Below are positions 10,717 through 23,753 of a stretch of 35,058 nt of DNA, one piece after another; the stretch's first letter is position 1, and each line of letters begins with the position of its first letter. This DNA is from a virus: IMG/VR virus record IMGVR_UViG_3300027899_000421, positions 1 through 35,058 of that record; one strand, written 5' to 3'. The notes under the pieces are model-generated. The model had not been told where the DNA came from. It did no database searches and saw only the letters and a program-made list of their open reading frames with translations. Made by a program: the position numbers and the translations under genes.

Positions 10717-11439
10717 CTATATCTGTGAAATAAATTCTGCTTCTGGAATTCTTGTTCTAGGACTTTTAGATCCTAGCACCACCACTATGCGTTTTCCCTT
10801 ATCAGTATTCATAGACATAACGATACACCCACCTGCTTTGCGGGTCCATCCAGTTTTACTTACTTGGATGTTGTGAGTATTTCCTATAAGAGGATTGGTG
10901 TTTTTGAATACAAACCATTTGTGTTTGATTTTTATTTCTATTGCGGAATTTTGAGTTATATCGATGAGTTCTGGATGTTTTTCTGCTTCTTGTACTAGTA
11001 GTATTAATTCATTTGCTGTAGAGACATTGCGTCTATCAAGACCAGTTGAATCATATACTTTACTTTTACCCATTCCTAGTGTTTGCAATTTACTATTCAT
11101 ATTAGAAATGCACGATTTATATCCACTAGGATAGGTTCTACATAATAAATCCGCGGCGGTATTATTACTTCTAACCATTGCCATAGTCATTAATTCTCTT
11201 CTAGAGATAGAACCAAAGGCATCTGTATCTACCTTATCATCTAAATTTACATTAGATTCAAGCACCACTATAGAAGTCAAAAGCTTTGTAATACTAGCAA
11301 TAGTACGAACTTTATCGGGATTTTCTGAAGCTAATACAATACCATGCTCATCAGTAACCAACCACGATTTAGCAGTTAGATTTAATGAATAAGCATTAGT
11401 ACTTATTAGCAACAACAAACATATCAATAAACGATCCAT
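10717..11439 (-). CDS. Secreted D-alanyl-D-alanine carboxypeptidase/endopeptidase (peptidase S11, PBP7-like)
   Basis: S11 enzymes cut D-Ala-containing peptide bonds in peptidoglycan in the periplasm. All three catalytic motifs are present: SITK (in VRTIASITKLL, near residue 50), SNN (in AMVRSNNTAADLL), and KTG (in IQVSKTGWTRKAGG). An N-terminal hydrophobic signal (MDRLLICLLLLISTNAYS) directs export. At 240 aa it is short and lacks the C-terminal PBP5-type domain, so PBP7-like endopeptidase activity is more likely. I use the ATG at 11439; a GTG at 11454 is also in frame and neither has a clear ribosome site. It ends the curli-like block, and could open peptidoglycan for pore assembly or aid lysis. 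Confidence 0.9.
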   Translation of the reverse strand: MDRLLICLLLLISTNAYSLNLTAKSWLVTDEHGIVLASENPDKVRTIASITKLLTSIVVLESNVNLDDKVDTDAFGSISRRELMTMAMVRSNNTAADLLCRTYPSGYKSCISNMNSKLQTLGMGKSKVYDSTGLDRRNVSTANELILLVQEAEKHPELIDITQNSAIEIKIKHKWFVFKNTNPLIGNTHNIQVSKTGWTRKAGGCIVMSMNTDKGKRIVVVLGSKSPRTRIPEAEFISQI

Positions 11440-11444
11440 ATAGT

Positions 11445-11474
11445 ATAATAACACTAAAAAGATTTATTGTACAA
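11445..11474 (-). promoter_or_regulatory. Weak early-type promoter before the S11 peptidase
   Basis: TTGTACAATAAATC (11474-11461), 10 nt, then TATTAT (11450-11445). Spacing matches the strong copies exactly, but the boxes differ at several positions. The -10 box is only 5 nt from the ATG at 11439, so a transcript would be almost leaderless. Confidence 0.4.
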
Positions 11475-11475
11475 T

Positions 11476-13500
11476 TTATTTACTAGTTGCTCTAAAGGTA
11501 CCATCCCAGGATTCGGGTTTACCTTCTTCCATTCTTTCTATCATATTTTTGTAGTACTGTCTCATCTCAACAGGACCGTCTGCTGCTAGTTGCTTGGCTA
11601 GGAATATAGCACCTTCCCATTCACCCTCATAATAACCCATTAAATATTTCTTATGTAGTTTATAATGCTCAGGCTGATAGGTTGCAAGAGTGAATATCTT
11701 AACACCTTCAGTCTTACCCTTAACAGCAATGCAATCTAATTCAACCGTTGGGTATTCATCTTGAACTTGTTCTGCGGTTAAAGAACCAATAATCATTTTT
11801 ACACCATATGGTTTTGATTGGCCTTCTAATCTTGAAGCAAGGTTAACACTATCACCTAGGCAGGTGTAGTCAAAACGCTGACTAGAACCCATATTACCAA
11901 CCACAACAGTGCCTGTATTAATACCGAGTCCCATACCAAACGCAGGTATGCCCTCCTCTTTAATTTCTTTATTGAAATCATCTAAGCTCTCCATCATTTG
12001 TAATGCAGTTTTCACTGCCAATTTGGCATGATTTGGAGTATCTAATGGTGCATTCCAAAATGCCATTTGAGCATCACCAATATACTTATCTAGTGTACCC
12101 TCATTCTCTATAATCTTTGCTGTCATAGCGGTCATATAGCGATTCATAATCTTAGTTAGACCTTGTACATCCTTACCATAGTGTTCAGAGATCGTAGTAA
12201 ACCCACGAACATCAGTAAACATAATAGAAAGTTCTCTAGATTCACCACCAAGAGCCAATAATTCAGGATTCTTTTGTAACTTCTCAACCATTGCTGGTGA
12301 TAGGTAACTGCCGAATTGTTTCTTAATTTGTAATTTTTGATTTAATTCTGTTATAAACTTAACGGTAAATACGTGTGTATAAACCACAATAAGAGCAATA
12401 ATGGGAAACACAGAGTCAAGCAAGTAACTGTAACGATCGAACGCGAAAATACTACCATAATAACAACCAGCAATGATAGCAATAAAAGGAATGTAACCAT
12501 ATTTCCACCTTGTCAAATAAATTGCAACAATTGATAAAACAATAACTAATAAGATCTCTACACCATCAGACCAATCTGGTCTACTAATATTAGTACCAGT
12601 TATTAATGTATCTATAATGGTTGATTGTAGATGATGCGGATAGACCCCACCGGTGGGAGTTCCGACCGGGTTAGAAAGGCCTTTAGCTGTTGTTCCGAGA
12701 ATAACGGTAACTCCACCGAAGTCCTTTGGAAGATCAGCCAAAGAATATTGATTTGGCTTGGTTGACCAGTCCACCCAGATTCTTCCTTGAAGATCTGTCT
12801 CGACTTTTCTAAATTTGGGTATTCTGACCGCCTCAATACCAGACTCGTTGGACTTGACTTGAAAGCTGGGATCTCCGACTGCCACTCGCAAAGTCTCAAG
12901 GGCGATACTTGGGTACAGTAAGCCATTACTTGCAATGACCATAGGAACACGACGAGTGACACCATCAATTTCTGGAAGTACATTTACTACTCCAATCCCC
13001 GCTGCATTACTATTAATAGAATCTATATTAGGTAAAATGCTTGGGTAATTAACTGCAAAGTTAGATGCAGGTATTCCAATTTCTGAAACACCTGGACGGA
13101 ATGGAATTCCCTTCTGTTTATCAGTTGATCCTGCTTGAGGGAATACTACTGCGTATTTTTTTAAGACAGCAGTGAGCTTATCATCTTGTCCAAACCTATC
13201 ACGATCAGGAAGATAAAGGTTAGCAACGACCAACCCAGCGCCATGAGAATAAAGATCTTCAATAATGTTTGCATATTCGCCTCTCGGAAAAGGAAATTGA
13301 CCATATTTCTCTAAAGATTTATCGTCAATATTAACTACACTTACTTGAGTAGATGTAGTGGTTTGCTTACTAACAATTAGCGTATCAAAATAACGAAGAC
13401 GTACAGATTCTACAAATGAAGGATCTGACATTCTTAATGTTATTAATAAACATAATGTAAGTAGTGCTAACCACGGACTTAAAAGAACTTTCTTAAGCAT
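11476..13500 (-). CDS. CHASE2-domain transmembrane adenylate cyclase (class III)
   Basis: The protein (674 aa) has an N-terminal helix (about residues 8-24), a periplasmic CHASE2 sensor (about 28-310, with VVNIDDKSLEKYGQFPFPRG and GGVYPHHLQSTIIDTLI), three hydrophobic helices (about 315-385), and a C-terminal class III cyclase domain (about 420-600). Both metal-binding Asp are present (FTDVRGF and KYIGDAQMAFWNAP), as are the Lys of DKYIGD and the transition-state Asn and Arg (GDSVNLASRLEG). It should be catalytically competent and make cAMP from ATP, probably as a dimer, in response to an envelope signal. It lies 15 nt from the nuclease gene. CHASE2 cyclases in bacteria often neighbour FecR-domain genes, as here. 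I know of no characterised phage example. Confidence 0.93.
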   Translation of the reverse strand: MLKKVLLSPWLALLTLCLLITLRMSDPSFVESVRLRYFDTLIVSKQTTTSTQVSVVNIDDKSLEKYGQFPFPRGEYANIIEDLYSHGAGLVVANLYLPDRDRFGQDDKLTAVLKKYAVVFPQAGSTDKQKGIPFRPGVSEIGIPASNFAVNYPSILPNIDSINSNAAGIGVVNVLPEIDGVTRRVPMVIASNGLLYPSIALETLRVAVGDPSFQVKSNESGIEAVRIPKFRKVETDLQGRIWVDWSTKPNQYSLADLPKDFGGVTVILGTTAKGLSNPVGTPTGGVYPHHLQSTIIDTLITGTNISRPDWSDGVEILLVIVLSIVAIYLTRWKYGYIPFIAIIAGCYYGSIFAFDRYSYLLDSVFPIIALIVVYTHVFTVKFITELNQKLQIKKQFGSYLSPAMVEKLQKNPELLALGGESRELSIMFTDVRGFTTISEHYGKDVQGLTKIMNRYMTAMTAKIIENEGTLDKYIGDAQMAFWNAPLDTPNHAKLAVKTALQMMESLDDFNKEIKEEGIPAFGMGLGINTGTVVVGNMGSSQRFDYTCLGDSVNLASRLEGQSKPYGVKMIIGSLTAEQVQDEYPTVELDCIAVKGKTEGVKIFTLATYQPEHYKLHKKYLMGYYEGEWEGAIFLAKQLAADGPVEMRQYYKNMIERMEEGKPESWDGTFRATSK

Positions 13501-13515
13501 CTACTACTCCTTGTA

Positions 13516-14271
13516 TTACCAATCCTTCAAATTACCAGGCTTTGTTTCAAGTGCTTTCATATTAGTTGGTAATGTTGGAAAGAAATTAATTTTAGTATAA
13601 GATTCTAATTCAGCAATTGATACAACATAATCACCCATCGTTTTTGGATCAAGCTTTTCATTTGGGAACATGAATGCAATTGCTTTACCTGATTTTGGTT
13701 CTATAATAATCTTCCATACGAATGAAGGAATTAATACTCCCTTACCCATTGTTTTAGAATCTTTATCATATAACGTACCAGTTACTACATACACTTGACC
13801 ATACTTAGTTGCCCATGTACGTGTGTACTCTTCAAGATATTTCCAAATTCCACGGTTATTACCCGGAGATTGTGGCATCATATTAGTTAAAAAGAATGAT
13901 TCAGACATTACTTTAGAATCATATACAAAGTTTGCTGCAGGCGCCATATGGCCACGATCCAAACCTGCACCCTTATAATCTTCTAGTGTTGCTCTAAATT
14001 GTGCTGGTATTTCTGGATCTTCTCTGAAATCGTCCTTACGTCCTGCTGTTTTTACCGCAATATTGGAAGCTTTAATTGTTTCTACTACGTAGTCTGCACC
14101 TTTTGTATTGTAGTTATATTCAAGGGCATAACCAGTTTTACAAAGATATTGGTTGTTACCATCTTTAATAACAGGTGCACCATAAATTACATGTTGTGGG
14201 CATTTCGTGTCAATCGGATTTGCTAATACTAAATTTACAAATAATAAAAATACTAAACCTAATTTTTTCAT
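13516..14271 (-). CDS. Secreted DNA/RNA non-specific endonuclease (NucA/EndoG family)
   Basis: This is a beta-beta-alpha metal nuclease. The catalytic DRGHMAP motif is intact (GAGLDRGHMAPAANF, near residue 105-119), and the metal-ligand Asn segment follows (MMPQSPGNNRGIWKYLEEY). A clear signal peptide (MKKLGLVFLLFVNLVLA) predicts export to the periplasm or beyond. The length of 251 aa is normal. It sits between the FecR and cyclase genes in the curli-like block. A periplasmic nuclease could destroy incoming DNA of competing phages or scavenge nucleotides; both ideas are inference. Confidence 0.93.
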   Translation of the reverse strand: MKKLGLVFLLFVNLVLANPIDTKCPQHVIYGAPVIKDGNNQYLCKTGYALEYNYNTKGADYVVETIKASNIAVKTAGRKDDFREDPEIPAQFRATLEDYKGAGLDRGHMAPAANFVYDSKVMSESFFLTNMMPQSPGNNRGIWKYLEEYTRTWATKYGQVYVVTGTLYDKDSKTMGKGVLIPSFVWKIIIEPKSGKAIAFMFPNEKLDPKTMGDYVVSIAELESYTKINFFPTLPTNMKALETKPGNLKDW

Positions 14272-14299
14272 ACTATGTTCTCAGAGATTAAAGTTTTAT

Positions 14300-15328
14300 T
14301 TATTTAGATTGTTTTATGGTAATAGTGTTAGTAGTACTATCAGAATTCTGCGTTTTAACTATTTGACCATCTTGGATAATTGTAATATTATAACCTCGAT
14401 CCTTGTTGATTAATACTGTAGCGTTCTGCGTAATAGATCTAGTTATTTGCCAATAAGTTGTCTTATCAAACACATATGTTTTAGTACCTGAATTATATCC
14501 TGCTCCAAATGTGTCCATAAGTGCATCATCAAATGCATTAGACAAATAATCTACATTTAATTCATTAATATCTAATTCATCAAATTTTGCATATGGATCT
14601 ACCCATACTCTAACCTCTAATGCATTCTTATCTAATTCAGAAAAACTTAATGCATCACTTGACGCTTTACTATCTTCTATTAATTGTTTCAATATTTCTT
14701 TTGGTGGTTTCACAATCAACATATTGTCAATCATGGATTCAGATAGATTTAATATTGTAGGGGTAGAAGGTTTAGTTTCTGAATTGGTTGTGAATGTTGC
14801 TTGGAATGGTTTATTTAATAATACTATTCCAGCCGTCGTTAACACATCAATTGCTCCAACTGAACCGTCGGGATTGGGCAATAAGATAACTAATGACTGA
14901 CCTATTTCGTCAACAGTCATGGTGAATGCGGTACCTCGAACGGCTACGGTAGCAGTAGGAGTATTGATTGACACATTTTTACTATTGTTGTGGGCAATAT
15001 TACCAGACGCGTAACGTACAGTTCCTAATGCTACCTTTAGAGCAAGTTTACCTGCGCCCTTAGATTTAGCGTCATATACAAAATCATCAATGGTTAGTTT
15101 AGAATGTTCTGTGACACGGACTTTAGTATCATCTTGAAATGTAATCCCAATGACGCCGTTTCCAGTACTAACATTGTCCATAGACTCGATGCCAACATTT
15201 AAGCCAGCATCGATCTTGGATTTTTGTCGCTGAATCTCACCTAATCCCTTTTCCTCCGTGATCTTACCGATCGCGGCGTAAGAACTAGTGCTGAGTAATA
15301 GTAGTACTAGTGCCAGTACCCGTAACAT
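14300..15328 (-). CDS. Periplasmic FecR-domain protein (342 aa)
   Basis: After a signal peptide (MLRVLALVLLLLSTSSYA), the protein carries a FecR domain at about residues 45-160: ITFQDDTKVRVTEHSKLTID, then GTVRYASGNIA and SINTPTATVAVRGTAFT. Unlike classical FecR sigma regulators, it has no cytoplasmic anti-sigma part or membrane helix, so it is likely soluble in the periplasm or secreted. The remaining 180 residues are Thr/Ser/Asp-rich with no known fold. It overlaps the curlin-like gene by 44 nt and precedes the nuclease and CHASE2-cyclase genes. It may be a partner or ligand of the CHASE2 sensor. Confidence 0.9.
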   Translation of the reverse strand: MLRVLALVLLLLSTSSYAAIGKITEEKGLGEIQRQKSKIDAGLNVGIESMDNVSTGNGVIGITFQDDTKVRVTEHSKLTIDDFVYDAKSKGAGKLALKVALGTVRYASGNIAHNNSKNVSINTPTATVAVRGTAFTMTVDEIGQSLVILLPNPDGSVGAIDVLTTAGIVLLNKPFQATFTTNSETKPSTPTILNLSESMIDNMLIVKPPKEILKQLIEDSKASSDALSFSELDKNALEVRVWVDPYAKFDELDINELNVDYLSNAFDDALMDTFGAGYNSGTKTYVFDKTTYWQITRSITQNATVLINKDRGYNITIIQDGQIVKTQNSDSTTNTITIKQSK

Positions 15329-15992
15329 TGAGTATCACGCTGTTAGGATTGGTAGTACCATTTTGAAGTACTGATAATGAGTTATTTGAACCAATAATAC
15401 TAGTTTGAATATTATGACCACCAGTTTGTGATGTGCCATTAGCACCAATCTGGGTTGTAGTAATAGTATTTGAACTACCAGTCACAGTAAATGCGTTGGT
15501 TGTATTCTTACTATTAATATTATTTGTCATCGCATTTGAACCACCAGTAATAGTTGCCAAGAAATTATAATTTCCAGCATCATTTGTGGTACCAATGTTT
15601 AACCCAGTCGTATTATTGTCACCAGTAACTGATAAGTTTAATGTACCAGAACTAGTACCCATATTACCCATGTTCAAATTAGTAGTATTTGAGTTACCGT
15701 CTTGACTAAGTGTTGCAGTAGAATTACCACCAATAAAATTACCAGTGATGGAGTTATTCATACCATTTTGGTCAATAGTTAAACTCATACTATTTCCGTC
15801 AATAACAAATGAAGGACTGCTAATATCTGCACTATCTCCCACTTGGTTATTAGAACCTGTTTGTGTAATACTGACTGTTGAATTGTCAGCATTCGTTTGG
15901 TCAATATAGACTGAGTTACCGCCTGAATCAACCGCCAATGCACTACTACTTAATAACGAAGCCATAATGAAAGTAATTAGTTTACGTTTCAT
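15285..15992 (-). CDS. Curlin-repeat secreted protein (CsgA/CsgB-like)
   Basis: A signal peptide (MKRKLITFIMASLLSSSALA) is followed by about 215 residues of Asn/Ser/Thr/Gly-rich imperfect repeats, each about 22-25 residues. Units such as NSTVSITQTGSNNQV, NSMSLTIDQNGMNNSI and NSTATLSQDGNSN follow the curlin pattern S-x5-Q-x-G-x-x-N of amyloid subunits CsgA and CsgB. At least five units are recognisable. It lies 6 nt downstream of csgG, so it is the obvious candidate substrate of the CsgG/CsgF pore, possibly forming extracellular amyloid-like fibres. The later repeats are degenerate, so fibre formation is not certain. Confidence 0.85.
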   Translation of the reverse strand: MKRKLITFIMASLLSSSALAVDSGGNSVYIDQTNADNSTVSITQTGSNNQVGDSADISSPSFVIDGNSMSLTIDQNGMNNSITGNFIGGNSTATLSQDGNSNTTNLNMGNMGTSSGTLNLSVTGDNNTTGLNIGTTNDAGNYNFLATITGGSNAMTNNINSKNTTNAFTVTGSSNTITTTQIGANGTSQTGGHNIQTSIIGSNNSLSVLQNGTTNPNSVILNVTGTGTSTTITQH

Positions 15993-15998
15993 TGCCTC

Positions 15999-16772
15999 TT
16001 ACTCCTCTTGTTTAAATTTCCAAATACCTTTTTTTGAACCTTGATATATCATTTCCTCAACTGCATTATCAATTGCAGATTTCAAAGCATAAACACCTGG
16101 TTCATTTGAAGTTACACCAAATTCACTCTCAAAGTTTTTAGTACCACTATCATAAAACTTAAATACTGCTACTGATTCTGCAACACTAAGAATTTTCTTC
16201 TCAGAGTTTACGGTCAGCAATACTTCTCCAGTACTAACACTTACAACTCGAATACTTACCGTCACCATATCTTCTTGGTATTGGGTGTTAGGGCCAATAC
16301 CTAAATATCTTACACCAAATCCACCAGTCTTAACATTGGTGTCATATGAAACTATAGCACCTTCAATCAACATTCCTGCATATAAAACAGTTCTTAATGG
16401 AGTTACATCTCTTACTTCTTCTCTTGCAGATCTAATTAGTTGTCTTTCTTTTAAAAGATTGTCAAGACTGACTCTTTCTACAACTCTAAACCATTTTCCA
16501 TCACCTACATCTTGTAATGATTTAAGTAATAATGTTTCTCCGCCCTGTGTTACTGCCGATGATAACTTAGCAATTTGACCACCATCTTTTCTTTGCCCAG
16601 TCTTATCAGTAAATGAATATACACCAACAACTATTTTACCACCTGCGGGTTCAGGTATTACCCGTTTAGTTTTGGTTAAACCGGATGCTTCAGGTTGATC
16701 CTGTTGAAATTTTACAGGTGTACCAACACAACCACTTAAGCATAACAATAAGAATAATACTATTAATCTCAT
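15999..16772 (-). CDS. csgG: CsgG-like outer-membrane secretion pore lipoprotein
   Basis: CsgG forms a nonameric outer-membrane channel that exports curli subunits. The lipobox LCLSGC is at residues 10-15, giving a lipidated Cys. The body matches CsgG throughout: GKIVVGVYSFTDKTGQ, LDNLLKERQLIRSARE, the barrel segment SYDTNVKTGGFGVRYLGIGP with NTQYQ, RVVSVSTGEVLLTVNSEKKI and TSNEPGVYALKSAI. In the constriction loop the residues aligned with E. coli Tyr51, Asn55 and Phe56 appear to be Gly, Lys and Leu, so the eyelet would differ. The length (257 aa) is near the normal 277. It follows csgF by one base. Confidence 0.93.
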   Translation of the reverse strand: MRLIVLFLLLCLSGCVGTPVKFQQDQPEASGLTKTKRVIPEPAGGKIVVGVYSFTDKTGQRKDGGQIAKLSSAVTQGGETLLLKSLQDVGDGKWFRVVERVSLDNLLKERQLIRSAREEVRDVTPLRTVLYAGMLIEGAIVSYDTNVKTGGFGVRYLGIGPNTQYQEDMVTVSIRVVSVSTGEVLLTVNSEKKILSVAESVAVFKFYDSGTKNFESEFGVTSNEPGVYALKSAIDNAVEEMIYQGSKKGIWKFKQEE

Positions 16773-16773
16773 A

Positions 16774-17214
16774 TTAAAACTTAAATTGTCCTATGGGAAT
16801 CTGTACTTGAGTAATATTACCATCAACATCAGTTACAGTTAGTGATACCATATCCGCAACTTTTGTATATTGAATTGTATTGCCTTCAATAGTTACTGTT
16901 CCAGAATCCTTAGGATTTTCGCCAAATAAATTGTTAACTAATTGTGTAGACAATTGAGCATAAACTCTGCTCTCAAAGTTATTAAGAAACTTCTGCAAAT
17001 TAGTATTCTTAGATGCAGCGGCAGCGTCTTTAGCATCTTGTAAGCGTTTAGATTCTATTGATTGTTTACGAGAGGTCTCAGTATTCTCAATTGTCTGAAT
17101 ATGAGATGAATATCCTATCCCACTAAAGGAAGGACTTTTGAATGCAAAATCTAATTCAGCTGCGTGCGCATTACTGATCAGTAGTAGACTTACTATTATT
17201 ATTTTTGTGAACAT
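16774..17214 (-). CDS. csgF: CsgF-like curli assembly factor
   Basis: CsgF binds the outside of the CsgG pore and inserts its N-terminus into the channel. After the signal peptide (MFTKIIIVSLLLISNAHA), the mature start AELDFAFKSPSFSGIGYSSH matches the conserved CsgF pore-plugging segment (FxFxNPxF in E. coli). The Ala/Lys-rich linker is followed by a helix (FLNNFESRVYAQLSTQLVNN) and a beta-rich C-terminus (VSLTVTDVDGNITQVQIPIG), as in CsgF. At 146 aa it is close to the E. coli length of 138. It overlaps the preceding membrane-protein gene by 44 nt. No csgE is seen nearby. Confidence 0.92.
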   Translation of the reverse strand: MFTKIIIVSLLLISNAHAAELDFAFKSPSFSGIGYSSHIQTIENTETSRKQSIESKRLQDAKDAAAASKNTNLQKFLNNFESRVYAQLSTQLVNNLFGENPKDSGTVTIEGNTIQYTKVADMVSLTVTDVDGNITQVQIPIGQFKF

Positions 17215-17455
17215 TGTTGTTTTCCTGATCTCTCAAAGATAAAATAACATTCACTTTTTGATTAAGCCTAATTAGATCGTTATCGAGCATTCTAATACGA
17301 TCTATCAACTCAATTAATACTTTATTTGATTCACCTATAACTGGATCTATGTCTTCCGTTACCCACTTCCAAATGTAATATACAAAATACCCAAGTCCAC
17401 CAGCTGCTATAATTGGAAAGCCATACTTATTAATTGCTTCTACTAATTCTTGCAT
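17171..17455 (-). CDS. Small single-TM membrane protein, paralogue A (94 aa)
   Basis: I start it at the ATG at 17455, with GGGAAGG 7 nt upstream and a TAATG overlap with the preceding gene; an upstream in-frame start at 17470 is less likely. The sequence opens MQELVEAINKYGFPIIAAGG, continues with one membrane helix (LGYFVYYIWKWVT), then an amphipathic segment LIDRIRMLDNDLIRLNQKVN and an Asn-rich tail. It is visibly similar to the protein at 17631, so the two are paralogues. The position directly upstream of csgF suggests a shared function, perhaps a holin-like or pore-associated inner-membrane partner. Confidence 0.8.
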   Translation of the reverse strand: MQELVEAINKYGFPIIAAGGLGYFVYYIWKWVTEDIDPVIGESNKVLIELIDRIRMLDNDLIRLNQKVNVILSLRDQENNNVHKNNNSKSTTDQ

Positions 17456-17631
17456 TAATCGCCTTCCCAAATTTGTTTGGGTGGTTGTTTCTTAAATGTA
17501 ATTACACCATCTACTATTTCTGCTTTAAATAGATCGCCATCTTTTAAATTTATTTTATCAGCAATTAATTCATGATCCATTTGAATAGAACCATCTTCTA
17601 ATAATCTAAAATAGTAATCTATAAATCTCAT
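17455..17631 (-). CDS. Small AbrB/SpoVT-like protein (58 aa)
   Basis: A frame from ATG at 17631 to TAA at 17455-17457 encodes 58 residues. It overlaps both neighbouring genes by one base (TAATG at each end), strong evidence for a real gene. The stretch DGSIQMDHELIADKINLKDG followed by DLFKAEIVDGVITFKKQ resembles the swapped-hairpin AbrB/SpoVT fold of small DNA-binding regulators and antitoxins. The match is by pattern only. It lies between the two paralogous membrane proteins; it may regulate the block or be a structural coupling peptide. Confidence 0.65.
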   Translation of the reverse strand: MRFIDYYFRLLEDGSIQMDHELIADKINLKDGDLFKAEIVDGVITFKKQPPKQIWEGD

Positions 17632-17906
17632 TAGTCTCTCCTTGCGTCAGATTGCTCTGCTCTTGCAATTCGATCTAAATCTGGTGGAATACCTAAAGCA
17701 TGGGATACTTTAGTATCAATACGAATTACATCATGGTTCATTGCTGCAACACGTCTATCTAAGGCTTTAATGATTCCACTCATTCCTCTAACCCCGCCGG
17801 TTACACCTTCTAATATGAACTTAATAGTTAGGAATACAAAGTAGCCTGCTGCGCATGCTCCGGCAATGGGAAAACCCACATCTCCTATTAAACTTAATAT
17901 GTCCAT
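17631..17906 (-). CDS. Small single-TM membrane protein, paralogue B (91 aa)
   Basis: The protein begins MDILSLIGDVGFPIAGACAA, with a membrane helix through GYFVFLTIKFILEGV, then a soluble helix containing IIKALDRRVAAMNHDVIRID and a basic/acidic tail. The shared pattern GFPI-(A/G)-rich-GYFV followed by a D-x-x-IRxD/LN helix identifies it as a paralogue of the protein at 17171. No ribosome site is visible; a TATAAATA box lies 4 nt upstream of the start. It opens the secretion block. A holin-like or pore-associated role is inference. Confidence 0.78.
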   Translation of the reverse strand: MDILSLIGDVGFPIAGACAAGYFVFLTIKFILEGVTGGVRGMSGIIKALDRRVAAMNHDVIRIDTKVSHALGIPPDLDRIARAEQSDARRD

Positions 17907-17910
17907 GTAT

Positions 17911-17918
17911 TATTTATA
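17911..17918 (-). promoter_or_regulatory. Possible T4-like late promoter box upstream of the curli-like block
   Basis: TATAAATA matches the T4 late promoter octamer and lies in the 20-nt gap between the coiled-coil membrane protein (stop 17927) and the 91-aa gene (ATG 17906). Because only 4 nt separate box and ATG, the first gene would be leaderless, but csgF, csgG and later genes would be transcribed late. Confidence 0.35.
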
Positions 17919-17926
17919 CTGGGGTG

Positions 17927-18997
17927 TCATTCAGGGGTGATTCTTCTTCCTACAGAATCATATTCTATTACTTTACCCGATTTAGTTAGTTCTATTTCTG
18001 TTGTATTAATAGAAATAGTTGGCTTTTGAATTTGTTCTATTTCTTCTTCAATAGTTTTAGATGCATCATATTCCCGTTCTGCTTCGGCTCTAGCATCATC
18101 TAAATTAAATTTAGGATCCCATTCTGATTTTGCAGGTTCTTCATTTAGTTCTTCAAAGAAGTCATCCCATATTATTTGATCCATATCCTCTTCAGTCCAT
18201 TCTCCATATGGATTAGTATCTGAATCTGGTTCTTCTTCTTTACTAATATGTTTGAGAGACCAGTTAGCAGCTACAAGCATTAGAACGGCAAGTGGATCGA
18301 ATACAGATACAATCATTAGGATAACAATCCTGACGGCCTTCTCTAGGAAGGATTGATCTAGATTGTCACCATAGATTAAAGCAGCAATATACTTAATTGG
18401 TCCTACTTCTGCTTCGACTTTCCTGAGCGTACTTGCGATTGGGGCTCTTTCTTCGTTGAGCTTACTGATTTCGCTTTGACTGGCTTGGATTGTGCGGTAG
18501 AGTTCTTTACGCTCTCTGGCTTGGGACTTTCTGATAGAGACGGATCTTCCCACCCCCTTGTCGGTTGTGTCGTTAGCGGTTCTGGCAATGGTTTGATCCA
18601 CTTGAGAATTAAGTTGAGTAATTGTTTTACGTGCTTCACTAATAGTCTCCTTTTCAGTTTTAATTTTTTCGTCGATTAATGCAACCTTAGCTGCAACATC
18701 TCCTGTTGGTACTGCTTGATCCAAATGAGCCTTAGATAGGTAACCAAAGATACCCATACTTGTAAGAGTCATAAGAATAATTAGCGCCACCATGAAATAA
18801 GACTTCATCATGATTGGTACTTCTTTCCAATTCCTATATAACCAGGAGGCCACAACAAGTTTTGCAACTTCTAGGGTGCCACCCATGATAACAATTGGAA
18901 TAATTGCGGCTGAGAATATTGCCGCAAGACCAGCAATAGAATAGTAAGCCGCAACTGCCGATAAAGTCAGCGCGGTAACAAACATTAAGTATATCAT
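17927..18997 (-). CDS. Conserved phage membrane protein with coiled coil (356 aa)
   Basis: I place the start at the ATG at 18997, which has GGAAGG upstream and an ATGA overlap with the preceding gene; the ATG at 19027 lies inside that gene. Two N-terminal hydrophobic helices (MIYLMFVTALTLSAVAAYYS, then FSAAIIPIVIMGGTLEVAKL) precede a third (MVALIILMTLTSMGIFGYL). Next comes an extended coiled coil (about residues 90-205), a fourth helix (ILMIVSVFDPLAVLMLVAAN) and an acidic cytoplasmic tail. The architecture is familiar from uncharacterised marine T4-like phage proteins. It may scaffold envelope complexes. It directly precedes the secretion block. Confidence 0.82.
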   Translation of the reverse strand: MIYLMFVTALTLSAVAAYYSIAGLAAIFSAAIIPIVIMGGTLEVAKLVVASWLYRNWKEVPIMMKSYFMVALIILMTLTSMGIFGYLSKAHLDQAVPTGDVAAKVALIDEKIKTEKETISEARKTITQLNSQVDQTIARTANDTTDKGVGRSVSIRKSQARERKELYRTIQASQSEISKLNEERAPIASTLRKVEAEVGPIKYIAALIYGDNLDQSFLEKAVRIVILMIVSVFDPLAVLMLVAANWSLKHISKEEEPDSDTNPYGEWTEEDMDQIIWDDFFEELNEEPAKSEWDPKFNLDDARAEAEREYDASKTIEEEIEQIQKPTISINTTEIELTKSGKVIEYDSVGRRITPE

Positions 18998-19740
18998 TTT
19001 ATTTCCTTCCAGTAGATAATTTCCCATCTACCATCATAGTGTTCAACTAAAGCAGAACATGATTCTACCCAGTCTCCATCGTTCATATAGATTATACCAT
19101 TTACTGTTTTAATCTCTGGTGTATGGATATGACCGCAAATTACTCCGTCAAACCCACGTCTTTCAGCATACTTTGTAATATTTTCTTCAAACTTAAATAC
19201 AAACCCGATAGCACCTTTAACTTTATGCTTTAGGTACTTACTTAAACTCCAATACCCAAATCCCATTTTGTGTCTGATAAAATTATATCGATTATTAATC
19301 CATAATGCAACATCATATGCCTTATCGCCTAATAACCCAATCCATGGTGCTAATGTAGATATCCCGTCAAACAAATCTCCATGTGTAATCAACAATCTAT
19401 TACCATCAATATCTCTGTATTCAGCTTGGTTACATAATTTAATATTACCAAGAGAAAACTGGTTAACAAATGGTCTTAAAAATTCGTCATGATTGCCGGT
19501 AACATATGTTACTTTTACACCGTGTTTACTATATCCAAGAACCTTACGAATAACATTAGTGTGCGACTGCTTCCACTTAAACTTGTTTTGCTTAATCTTC
19601 CAACCATCAATAATATCTCCTATTAGAAATAGGTTATCACACATATGGTTCTTTAAAAAGTTATTAAGCAAATCCGCTTTAGTGTCATTTGTGCCTAAAT
19701 GCAAATCTGATATACAAATTGTCTTATACTTGGTTGTCAA
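18994..19740 (-). CDS. Calcineurin-like phosphoesterase, LpxH-like
   Basis: All metallophosphoesterase motifs are present: ISDLHLGTND (residues 9-18), LIGDIIDGW (about 40), VTGNHDEFL (about 80), a LITHGDLFDG block (about 115) and the C-terminal GVICGHIHTPE (about 200). Spacing and the DGW/HIHTPE variants match the LpxH/UDP-2,3-diacylglucosamine hydrolase branch of lipid A synthesis, though substrate cannot be fixed from motifs. The length (248 aa) fits. The start is TTG at 19740, overlapping the preceding gene by 17 nt, with GGAG upstream; no ATG is available. It could modify host lipid A or nucleotides during infection. Confidence 0.85.
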   Translation of the reverse strand: MTTKYKTICISDLHLGTNDTKADLLNNFLKNHMCDNLFLIGDIIDGWKIKQNKFKWKQSHTNVIRKVLGYSKHGVKVTYVTGNHDEFLRPFVNQFSLGNIKLCNQAEYRDIDGNRLLITHGDLFDGISTLAPWIGLLGDKAYDVALWINNRYNFIRHKMGFGYWSLSKYLKHKVKGAIGFVFKFEENITKYAERRGFDGVICGHIHTPEIKTVNGIIYMNDGDWVESCSALVEHYDGRWEIIYWKEIK

Positions 19741-23339: not shown

Positions 23340-23753
23340 TTATTTTGTTCTTTCGGCTACTAATTTTCTTAAACTTGATGATGAGAAACGGTGTTCTCTT
23401 TTGTTGAAGTATAATTGAATTCCTCGGCGCTTACAAATATCTTTCCCCGTAAAATCTTTATCTCTATACTCATCACCTAGTACTCTTATATCTATATGAA
23501 ACATTTCTAGGATATCTTCAAGATCCCTTTCAGTCTCATATACTACTACTTCATCTACATATTTTACTGCACTTAATTGTACTTGTCGTTCTACAATAGT
23601 TTGTACTGGAGAATTCTTTTCAGATCTATCTATAGACGGGTCTGTTTGTAATCCACAAATAAGATAATCACAATGTTCCTTTGCTTCCCTTAACATAGCA
23701 ACATGGCCAGAATGTAATAAATCAAATGTACTACATGTAAATCCAACTATCAT
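23340..23753 (-). CDS. TagD-like glycerol-3-phosphate/sugar cytidylyltransferase
   Basis: The nucleotidyltransferase motif HxGH is at LLHSGHVAML (residue 13-22), following MIVGFTCSTFD. A central segment (ERQVQLSAVKYVDEVVVYET) and the C-terminal HRFSSSSLRKLV (in place of RTEGISTT) match the small TagD/adenylyltransferase family (about 130-140 aa). It would activate glycerol-3-phosphate, ethanolamine phosphate or a sugar phosphate with CTP or ATP. Its start overlaps the glf stop (ATGA), linking it to the sugar genes upstream. Substrate is uncertain. Confidence 0.85.
   Translation of the reverse strand: MIVGFTCSTFDLLHSGHVAMLREAKEHCDYLICGLQTDPSIDRSEKNSPVQTIVERQVQLSAVKYVDEVVVYETERDLEDILEMFHIDIRVLGDEYRDKDFTGKDICKRRGIQLYFNKREHRFSSSSLRKLVAERTK

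Follow-up and report, generated by a model that had tools for sequence, protein, structure and literature searches.

A conserved curli-like gene module with a putative late promoter and a FecR–CHASE2 cyclase pair in T4-like phages

Seven genes, coding for two small membrane proteins (MEM1 and MEM2), CsgF, CsgG, a curlin-repeat protein, a FecR protein and a CHASE2 adenylate cyclase, were found in viral loci in an order and with a linkage that is far beyond chance. In the window, by which the whole analysed stretch of viral DNA with a length of 35,058 nucleotides is meant (IMG/VR record IMGVR_UViG_3300027899_000421), they are located between positions 10717 and 17906, and strong sequence evidence points to a late operon with a T4-type promoter at MEM1.

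Clusters of this kind have been reported before. CsgG and CsgF were already published for pelagimyophages (PMC7029224) and for the methylophage Melnitz (PMC9004378), and in 2022 a more extensive cluster, which adds curlin, FecR and adenylate cyclase and has a ‘histidine kinase’ ahead of them, was described in pelagiphages, where phage curli clusters were reported to be widespread in the ocean (PMC9599517). The statement of the initial annotation that csgG and csgF alone had been reported is outdated in view of these shared clusters, and the initial finding chiefly amounts to a new and distant representative of a known cluster kind. A literature search retrieved no publication on the late promoter, the curlin-like tail of FecR, the holin-like and non-kinase identity of the MEM proteins or the pairing of FecR with a CHASE2 cyclase in bacteria, and the obligatory MEM1/MEM2 pair also appears to be previously undescribed.

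The block was initially annotated as ten genes in one orientation, and all ten ORFs of 10717..17906 were confirmed by an ORF check as present, intact and located on the minus strand, with Pfam support for seven of the ten identities. They are transcribed in the order MEM1, 58-aa peptide, MEM2, csgF, csgG, curlin, FecR, nuclease, CHASE2 cyclase and S11 peptidase. Ribonucleotide reductase, thymidylate synthase, primase and baseplate-like genes flank the module, a gene set as expected for a T4-like phage.

Viral loci were gathered with two queries (80 by CsgG and 80 by MEM2), all their genes were scored with profiles, and a locus was regarded as well flanked if at least 8 kb were present on both sides of the anchor (CsgG or MEM2). 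The complete core of MEM1, MEM2, csgF, csgG, curlin, FecR and CHASE2 cyclase was present in 28/28 csgG-anchored and 26/26 MEM2-anchored well-flanked loci, so that the proposed co-occurrence of csgG and csgF with the cyclase, FecR and curlin genes was borne out, and linkage of the flanking genes to csg genes held for MEM2, whose query yielded no well-flanked locus devoid of them. The 55 loci with the seven-gene core fall into 40 clusters at 90% CsgG identity, and purifying selection was detected on all seven core genes tested (dN/dS mostly 0.02–0.3). In 29 loci csgG and the MEM1/MEM2 pair are encoded on different strands and are still linked, the pair being positioned beyond the cyclase gene where inspected; a second curlin is carried by approximately half of the loci. 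It is supported that these genes are a real, selected and, by prediction, exported module.

The reading that bacterial DNA was joined to a phage contig by an assembly or binning error has practically no probability. No support for it was found, though some bacterial MAG bins hold such contigs, and both ends of the block are bridged by independent contigs (L010 upstream; L098, L100 and L103 downstream), which argues against a chimera. The base composition of the window is even, and the same arrangement recurs in dozens of independent contigs as well as in the isolate phages HTVC008M and Melnitz, whose genomes refute an artefact.

The putative promoter core TATAAATA is located at 17911..17918 on the minus strand and ends 4 bases ahead of the MEM1 start codon. 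Three exact copies, all on the minus strand, are present in the window versus 5.9 expected; with a copy number below expectation a single copy is weak by itself, and the evidence lies in its position across relatives. One further copy in the window was found just upstream of a baseplate-like gene, and motifs of this type are common in AT-rich DNA. Among same-strand loci the exact motif is found at most 90 nt from MEM1 in 59/100 (2.4 from shuffles), and the relaxed form ATAAATA/CTAAATA within the same distance in 84/94 (10.3 from shuffles). Before internal genes the relaxed motif was recorded at 0/128 loci for MEM2, 0/111 for CSGG and 1/99 for FECR. If MEM1 and MEM2 are positioned on the other strand, the motif precedes csgF in 14/25 loci, versus 1/90 when csgF follows MEM2. 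HTVC008M displays the motif at -12 of the tape measure gene, gp2, gp4 and gp48, which served as positive controls, and csgF and the cyclase gene have it at -12 too. The module is probably switched on late in infection, and such a promoter would narrow its purpose to the end of infection.

Of the curli components, csgG (15999..16772, minus strand) codes for a predicted outer-membrane pore lipoprotein with an LSGC lipobox (Pfam CsgG, E 2.1e-54), and its family profile matches the solved E. coli CsgG over the full length with 243 bits. The product of csgF (16774..17214, minus strand; Pfam CsgF, E 6.5e-20) carries a signal peptide; its profile was aligned with only the first 54 residues of E. coli CsgF (6l7a, E 0.0024), and the protein has a predicted CsgG-binding N-terminus. 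The curlin-repeat protein (15285..15992, minus strand; Curlin_rpt, E 2e-5), likewise with a signal peptide, is the candidate fibre subunit. The initial annotation had regarded it as the candidate substrate, and indeed it possesses true curlin repeats, Curlin_rpt being matched by 47/48 relatives. Its AlphaFold model consists almost entirely of strands (pLDDT 84, pTM 0.80), and a Foldseek search with this model gave no significant match (best E 0.16), several of the top rows being what we take to be beta-helices.

In E. coli, CsgE gates and feeds CsgG. The absence of csgE, noticed initially, was confirmed insofar as the CsgE profile found no match in the window and 11 related phage records (12/12), some of which may be fragments, and CsgE is reported to be absent from alphaproteobacterial curli systems as well (PMC9599517). 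Overall, the module resembles E. coli curli (CsgABCDEFG) in its CsgG pore, a CsgF with conserved N-terminal region and curlin repeats, but differs from it by the addition of FecR, the CHASE2 cyclase and MEM1/MEM2 and by the lack of a detectable CsgE in the phage records searched.

MEM1 (17631..17906, minus strand), the first gene of the module, codes for a predicted inner-membrane protein of 91 aa with one TM helix, a coiled coil and a conserved DARRD C-terminus; it is 42–79% identical among relatives and present in every fully flanked locus. MEM2 (17171..17461 or 17171..17470, minus strand) is its paralogue, as had been suspected. Both proteins were assigned to phrog_18771 (E 1e-32 and 1.5e-35, respectively), each with one hydrophobic stretch close to its N-terminus as well as a predicted coiled coil. 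The holin family phrog_4898 was matched by 9/12 MEM2 members (best E 1.8e-6), and in three members inspected more closely it was restricted to the first ~20 residues (of 62 positions) or absent. MEM1 and MEM2 are hence described as holin-like inner-membrane proteins and not called holins. In published pelagiphage clusters these small genes are labelled ‘histidine kinase’ and FecR is labelled an iron regulator (PMC7029224, PMC9004378, PMC9599517). The kinase identity was rejected, as the proteins are too short and possess no kinase domain: neither HisKA nor HATPase_c was matched by 12 MEM2 members (82–148 aa) or by MEM1 of the window. The 58-aa peptide encoded between both genes (17455..17631, minus strand) had been called ‘AbrB-like’ by eye, a label which could not be upheld, since no profile in Pfam, PHROG or NCBIfam was matched.

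The gene at 14300..15328 (minus strand; Pfam FecR, E 2.2e-8) codes for a protein with a signal peptide that looks like a FecR-curlin hybrid. A signal-peptide-like helix (residues 2–15) leads straight into the strands of the FecR domain (~20–180), and a linker with pLDDT <50 (225–271) is followed by C-terminal curlin-like strands (277–342), which form a separate domain in the AlphaFold model (pLDDT ~85). A C-terminal IxIxQ is present in 92/103 distinct phage FecR proteins versus 3.9 expected. As proof of kinship between FecR and curlin such a plain count was dismissed as unspecific, because CsgF ends are scored as well (30/121); profile-profile comparison was used instead and alone carries weight for this link. 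With hhalign the last 75 FecR residues were aligned C-end to C-end with both curlin families (E 3.4e-4 and 1.4e-4; scores 25.3 and 23.4) in a short match of 41 aa, while the controls scored at most 14.1 (60 comparisons with permuted columns), at most 13.3 (other module ends) and 18.9 (FecR domain versus curlin). Q340 is invariant among 51 diverse sequences. Pfam Curlin_rpt run on the FecR tail gave no call, and no solved structure was matched significantly when the FecR family was used as a sequence query.

In structure comparison the FecR domain fold matches PupR (6ovk, Z 15.4), a likeness shared with the FecR/PupR anti-sigma proteins of cell-surface signalling. The phage protein has no N-terminal anti-sigma region and no TM segment besides its signal peptide, and owing to the lack of the anti-sigma region a role as iron regulator is unlikely. 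A further likeness, to an adhesin cell-surface anchoring domain (5ix9; 73 residues superposed, Z 7.2, 27% identity), is confined to part of the FecR domain and, with Z under 8, may reflect a common arrangement; 5ix9 is presumably a domain of the MpAFP ice adhesin. Altogether the FecR protein, similar at its C-terminus to the terminal repeats in the curlins of its own phage, looks like a fibre-linked envelope protein, and its C-terminal curlin-like segment could serve as a CsgB-like nucleator. Such a tail would offer a concrete route for wiring an envelope sensor to amyloid.

The CHASE2 class III adenylate cyclase (11476..13500, minus strand; CHASE2, E 1.9e-37, and Guanylate_cyc, E 1e-20) is occupied at each of its six catalytic positions (D430, K472, D476, T546, N553 and R557), which we take to be the two metal-binding Asp, the substrate-binding Lys and Thr/Asp and the transition-state Asn and Arg; across 84 relatives, D430, K472, D476 and R557 do not vary. 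FecR next to a CHASE2 cyclase is a bacterial pairing. In Alphaproteobacteria ~12/20 CHASE2 cyclase loci contain a FecR-profile match at a distance of up to ~5 kb, one of these matches resting on a short ORF, and with ~68 FecR copies in ~78 Mb of the same genomes only ~0.009 would be expected per 10 kb locus. Together with a Burkholderia biofilm operon of FecR and a CHASE2 kinase (PMC5192318), these loci back the sensor-cyclase pair suggested at the outset. The phage resembles this BiofilmReg operon in that a secreted FecR-domain protein adjoins a CHASE2 membrane sensor. In Burkholderia, however, FecR is combined with LysM and CHASE2 with a histidine kinase, whereas the phage has a FecR with curlin-like tail and a CHASE2 cyclase. 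In the FecR proteins that accompany CHASE2 cyclases in bacteria, the tails, several of which are incomplete, have no IxIxQ-type end.

A bacterial curli operon with FecR, cyclase or MEM genes was sought in Alphaproteobacteria, and none was present among the three csgF loci read, in agreement with the published statement that FecR and cyclase are absent from bacterial curli operons; CsgF itself was detected in only 5/289 alphaproteobacterial genomes. Since the FecR–CHASE2 pair is bacterial and the three bacterial csgF loci read possess neither gene, two bacterial units appear to be brought together in the phage. A scan of genome contigs with CsgG gave no donor, as the matches were mostly phage contigs in bacterial bins.

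Two further genes of the block are optional cargo and not part of the core, given their occurrence in 10/54 (nuclease) and 2/54 (S11 peptidase) anchored loci. The nuclease (13516..14271, minus strand), a secreted DNA/RNA non-specific endonuclease (Endonuclease_NS, E 2e-56) in which a DRGH motif and a signal peptide were recognised by eye, varies in presence and position. The S11 peptidase (10717..11454, minus strand; Peptidase_S11, E 4.7e-39), which has a signal peptide and directly follows the cyclase in a few relatives, is closest to the D,D-endopeptidase PbpG, and PRK11669, a D-Ala-D-Ala endopeptidase, was matched with E 4.6e-44, below the model cut-off. Of the coherent exported module proposed initially, the seven-gene core was retained, while the two envelope enzymes had to be taken out as variable.

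Our preferred reading, held tentatively and at somewhat less than even chance, is that of a late envelope operon which exports a surface amyloid, monitors its state via FecR and CHASE2 cAMP signalling and is coupled to lysis and release. The operon, read from the MEM1 promoter, would span the host envelope. Late in infection curlin would be exported through the CsgG pore with CsgF as plug or chaperone and assemble at the surface; FecR would be the fibre base or cap, its curlin-like end joining the fibre and its FecR domain staying in the periplasm. CHASE2 would read FecR and set cAMP synthesis, and MEM1/MEM2 may tie the module to the state of the inner membrane and to lysis. As an outcome, amyloid assembly at the surface would be monitored from inside and coupled to lysis timing and release, probably at egress, and the optional cargo (PbpG-like endopeptidase, secreted nuclease and LpxH-like hydrolase) would open the envelope or clear DNA. 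We know of no link between cAMP and lysis in the likely hosts. The more specific version of a self-monitoring viral amyloid, in which FecR as fibre base or cap reports the state of fibre or pore to the CHASE2 cyclase and the holin-like pair couples this signal to lysis, is doubtful. The link between FecR and curlin and the obligatory holin-like pair do, however, name proteins and residues testable in cultured HTVC008M and Melnitz. Points against the preferred reading are the CsgE profile without a match, the shortness of the FecR-curlin match, a holin match of ~20 residues and the lack of clumping with Melnitz (PMC9004378).

The same observation on Melnitz, a curli-bearing phage in whose cultures no cell clumping was seen, weakens the idea of aggregation under those conditions. 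It bears directly on the proposal (PMC7029224, PMC9599517) that surface amyloid clumps neighbouring cells, so that released virions meet hosts immediately, the sensor and holin-like parts only tuning expression. True curlin repeats are conserved and late timing would suit release, but the constant retention of MEM1, MEM2 and cyclase is left unexplained, and this capture of siblings is rather unlikely. Nor is it likely, and less so than capture, that the module is a lysis timer only, as a role in lysis argued for Melnitz (PMC9004378) might suggest, with CsgG, with or without CsgF, as an open outer-membrane pore aiding depolarisation and lysis, and curlin and FecR gating the pore without any fibre. 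CsgE not found in 12 records, holin-like MEM proteins, the late promoter and a PbpG-like endopeptidase nearby would fit; curlin repeats kept in 47/48 relatives under purifying selection, and doubled by a second curlin in about half of the loci, speak against it.

Less probable again is superinfection exclusion, proposed in part in PMC9599517, in which, late in infection, the surface of the infected cell would be coated or altered by curlin and pore proteins, and incoming DNA would be destroyed by a nuclease in the periplasm. Signal peptides on curlin, CsgF and FecR and the secreted nuclease in the window are consistent with it, but the nuclease is variable among relatives and late promoters would come late for a function that usually acts early. 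A promoter of late type ahead of the first gene also disfavours the early, cAMP-driven host reprogramming considered in the initial annotation, with the curli genes as passengers. It has the filled active site of the cyclase in its favour, whereas constant co-inheritance with csg genes tells against it, and it must be considered highly improbable.

Compared with the pelagiphage type VIII secretion cluster (PMC9599517), HTVC008M and Melnitz, the window shares the core order from small membrane genes through csgF, csgG, curlin and FecR to the cyclase. It represents a distant lineage, with CsgG 43–45% and cyclase 38–40% identical to those of HTVC008M and Melnitz, and carries the nuclease at the position where both isolates have a second curlin. 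Unlike theirs, its module ends in the S11 peptidase and includes the 58-aa peptide between MEM1 and MEM2, which occurs in a minority of loci.

The first gene of the curli-like module, MEM1, which encodes a small holin-like membrane protein, is preceded by a late motif, the core of a T4-type late promoter, in the arrangement NATAAATA-N4-ATG (window 17906-17918), and in the isolate phage HTVC008M the same arrangement places the late motif at -12 of several annotated start codons. Since a late motif at this distance from the ATG would leave almost no 5' leader, leaderless late mRNAs from such starts are possible.

In many relatives MEM1 is adjoined, in some on the opposite strand, by a membrane and coiled-coil protein of the type encoded here at 17927-19027 (366 aa), for which profile searches returned no clear family. 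Also upstream of the module lies a gene for an LpxH-like metallophosphoesterase (18994-19740), recognised by a profile match to the UDP-2,3-diacylglucosamine diphosphatase model (E 4e-13, under the model's cut-off). Other phages repeatedly carry homologues close to the module, some of them between FecR or the second curlin gene and the cyclase, and lipid A may be the target of this enzyme. Elsewhere in the window, a heptose-phosphate adenylyltransferase-like gene (23340-23753; phrog_7878, E 4.9e-37) may hint at modification of the LPS core by this phage.

Within the module, the curlin gene shares 44 bases (15285-15328) with the FecR gene, so that the C-terminal curlin repeat and the FecR signal peptide are encoded by the same DNA; such overlaps are frequent among relatives (median about -59, with ORFs called from the first start). 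In one clade of phage cyclases (those of loci L072, L078 and L002) the substrate position is Asp and the transition-state Asn is replaced by Ser, the latter exchange occurring in 26 of 84 phage cyclases, and judging from these substitutions the activity of the clade may differ.

Contigs bearing the phage module were also present inside bacterial MAG bins (L084-L096; Rhodobacteraceae, Flavobacteriales, Pelagibacter and others), where csgG can thus be mistaken for a host gene. A csgG-like gene was further encountered in OR851715.1, a 1499-base record named Salmonella phage S.Kent 1-2-1, which is possibly bacterial DNA within a phage record.
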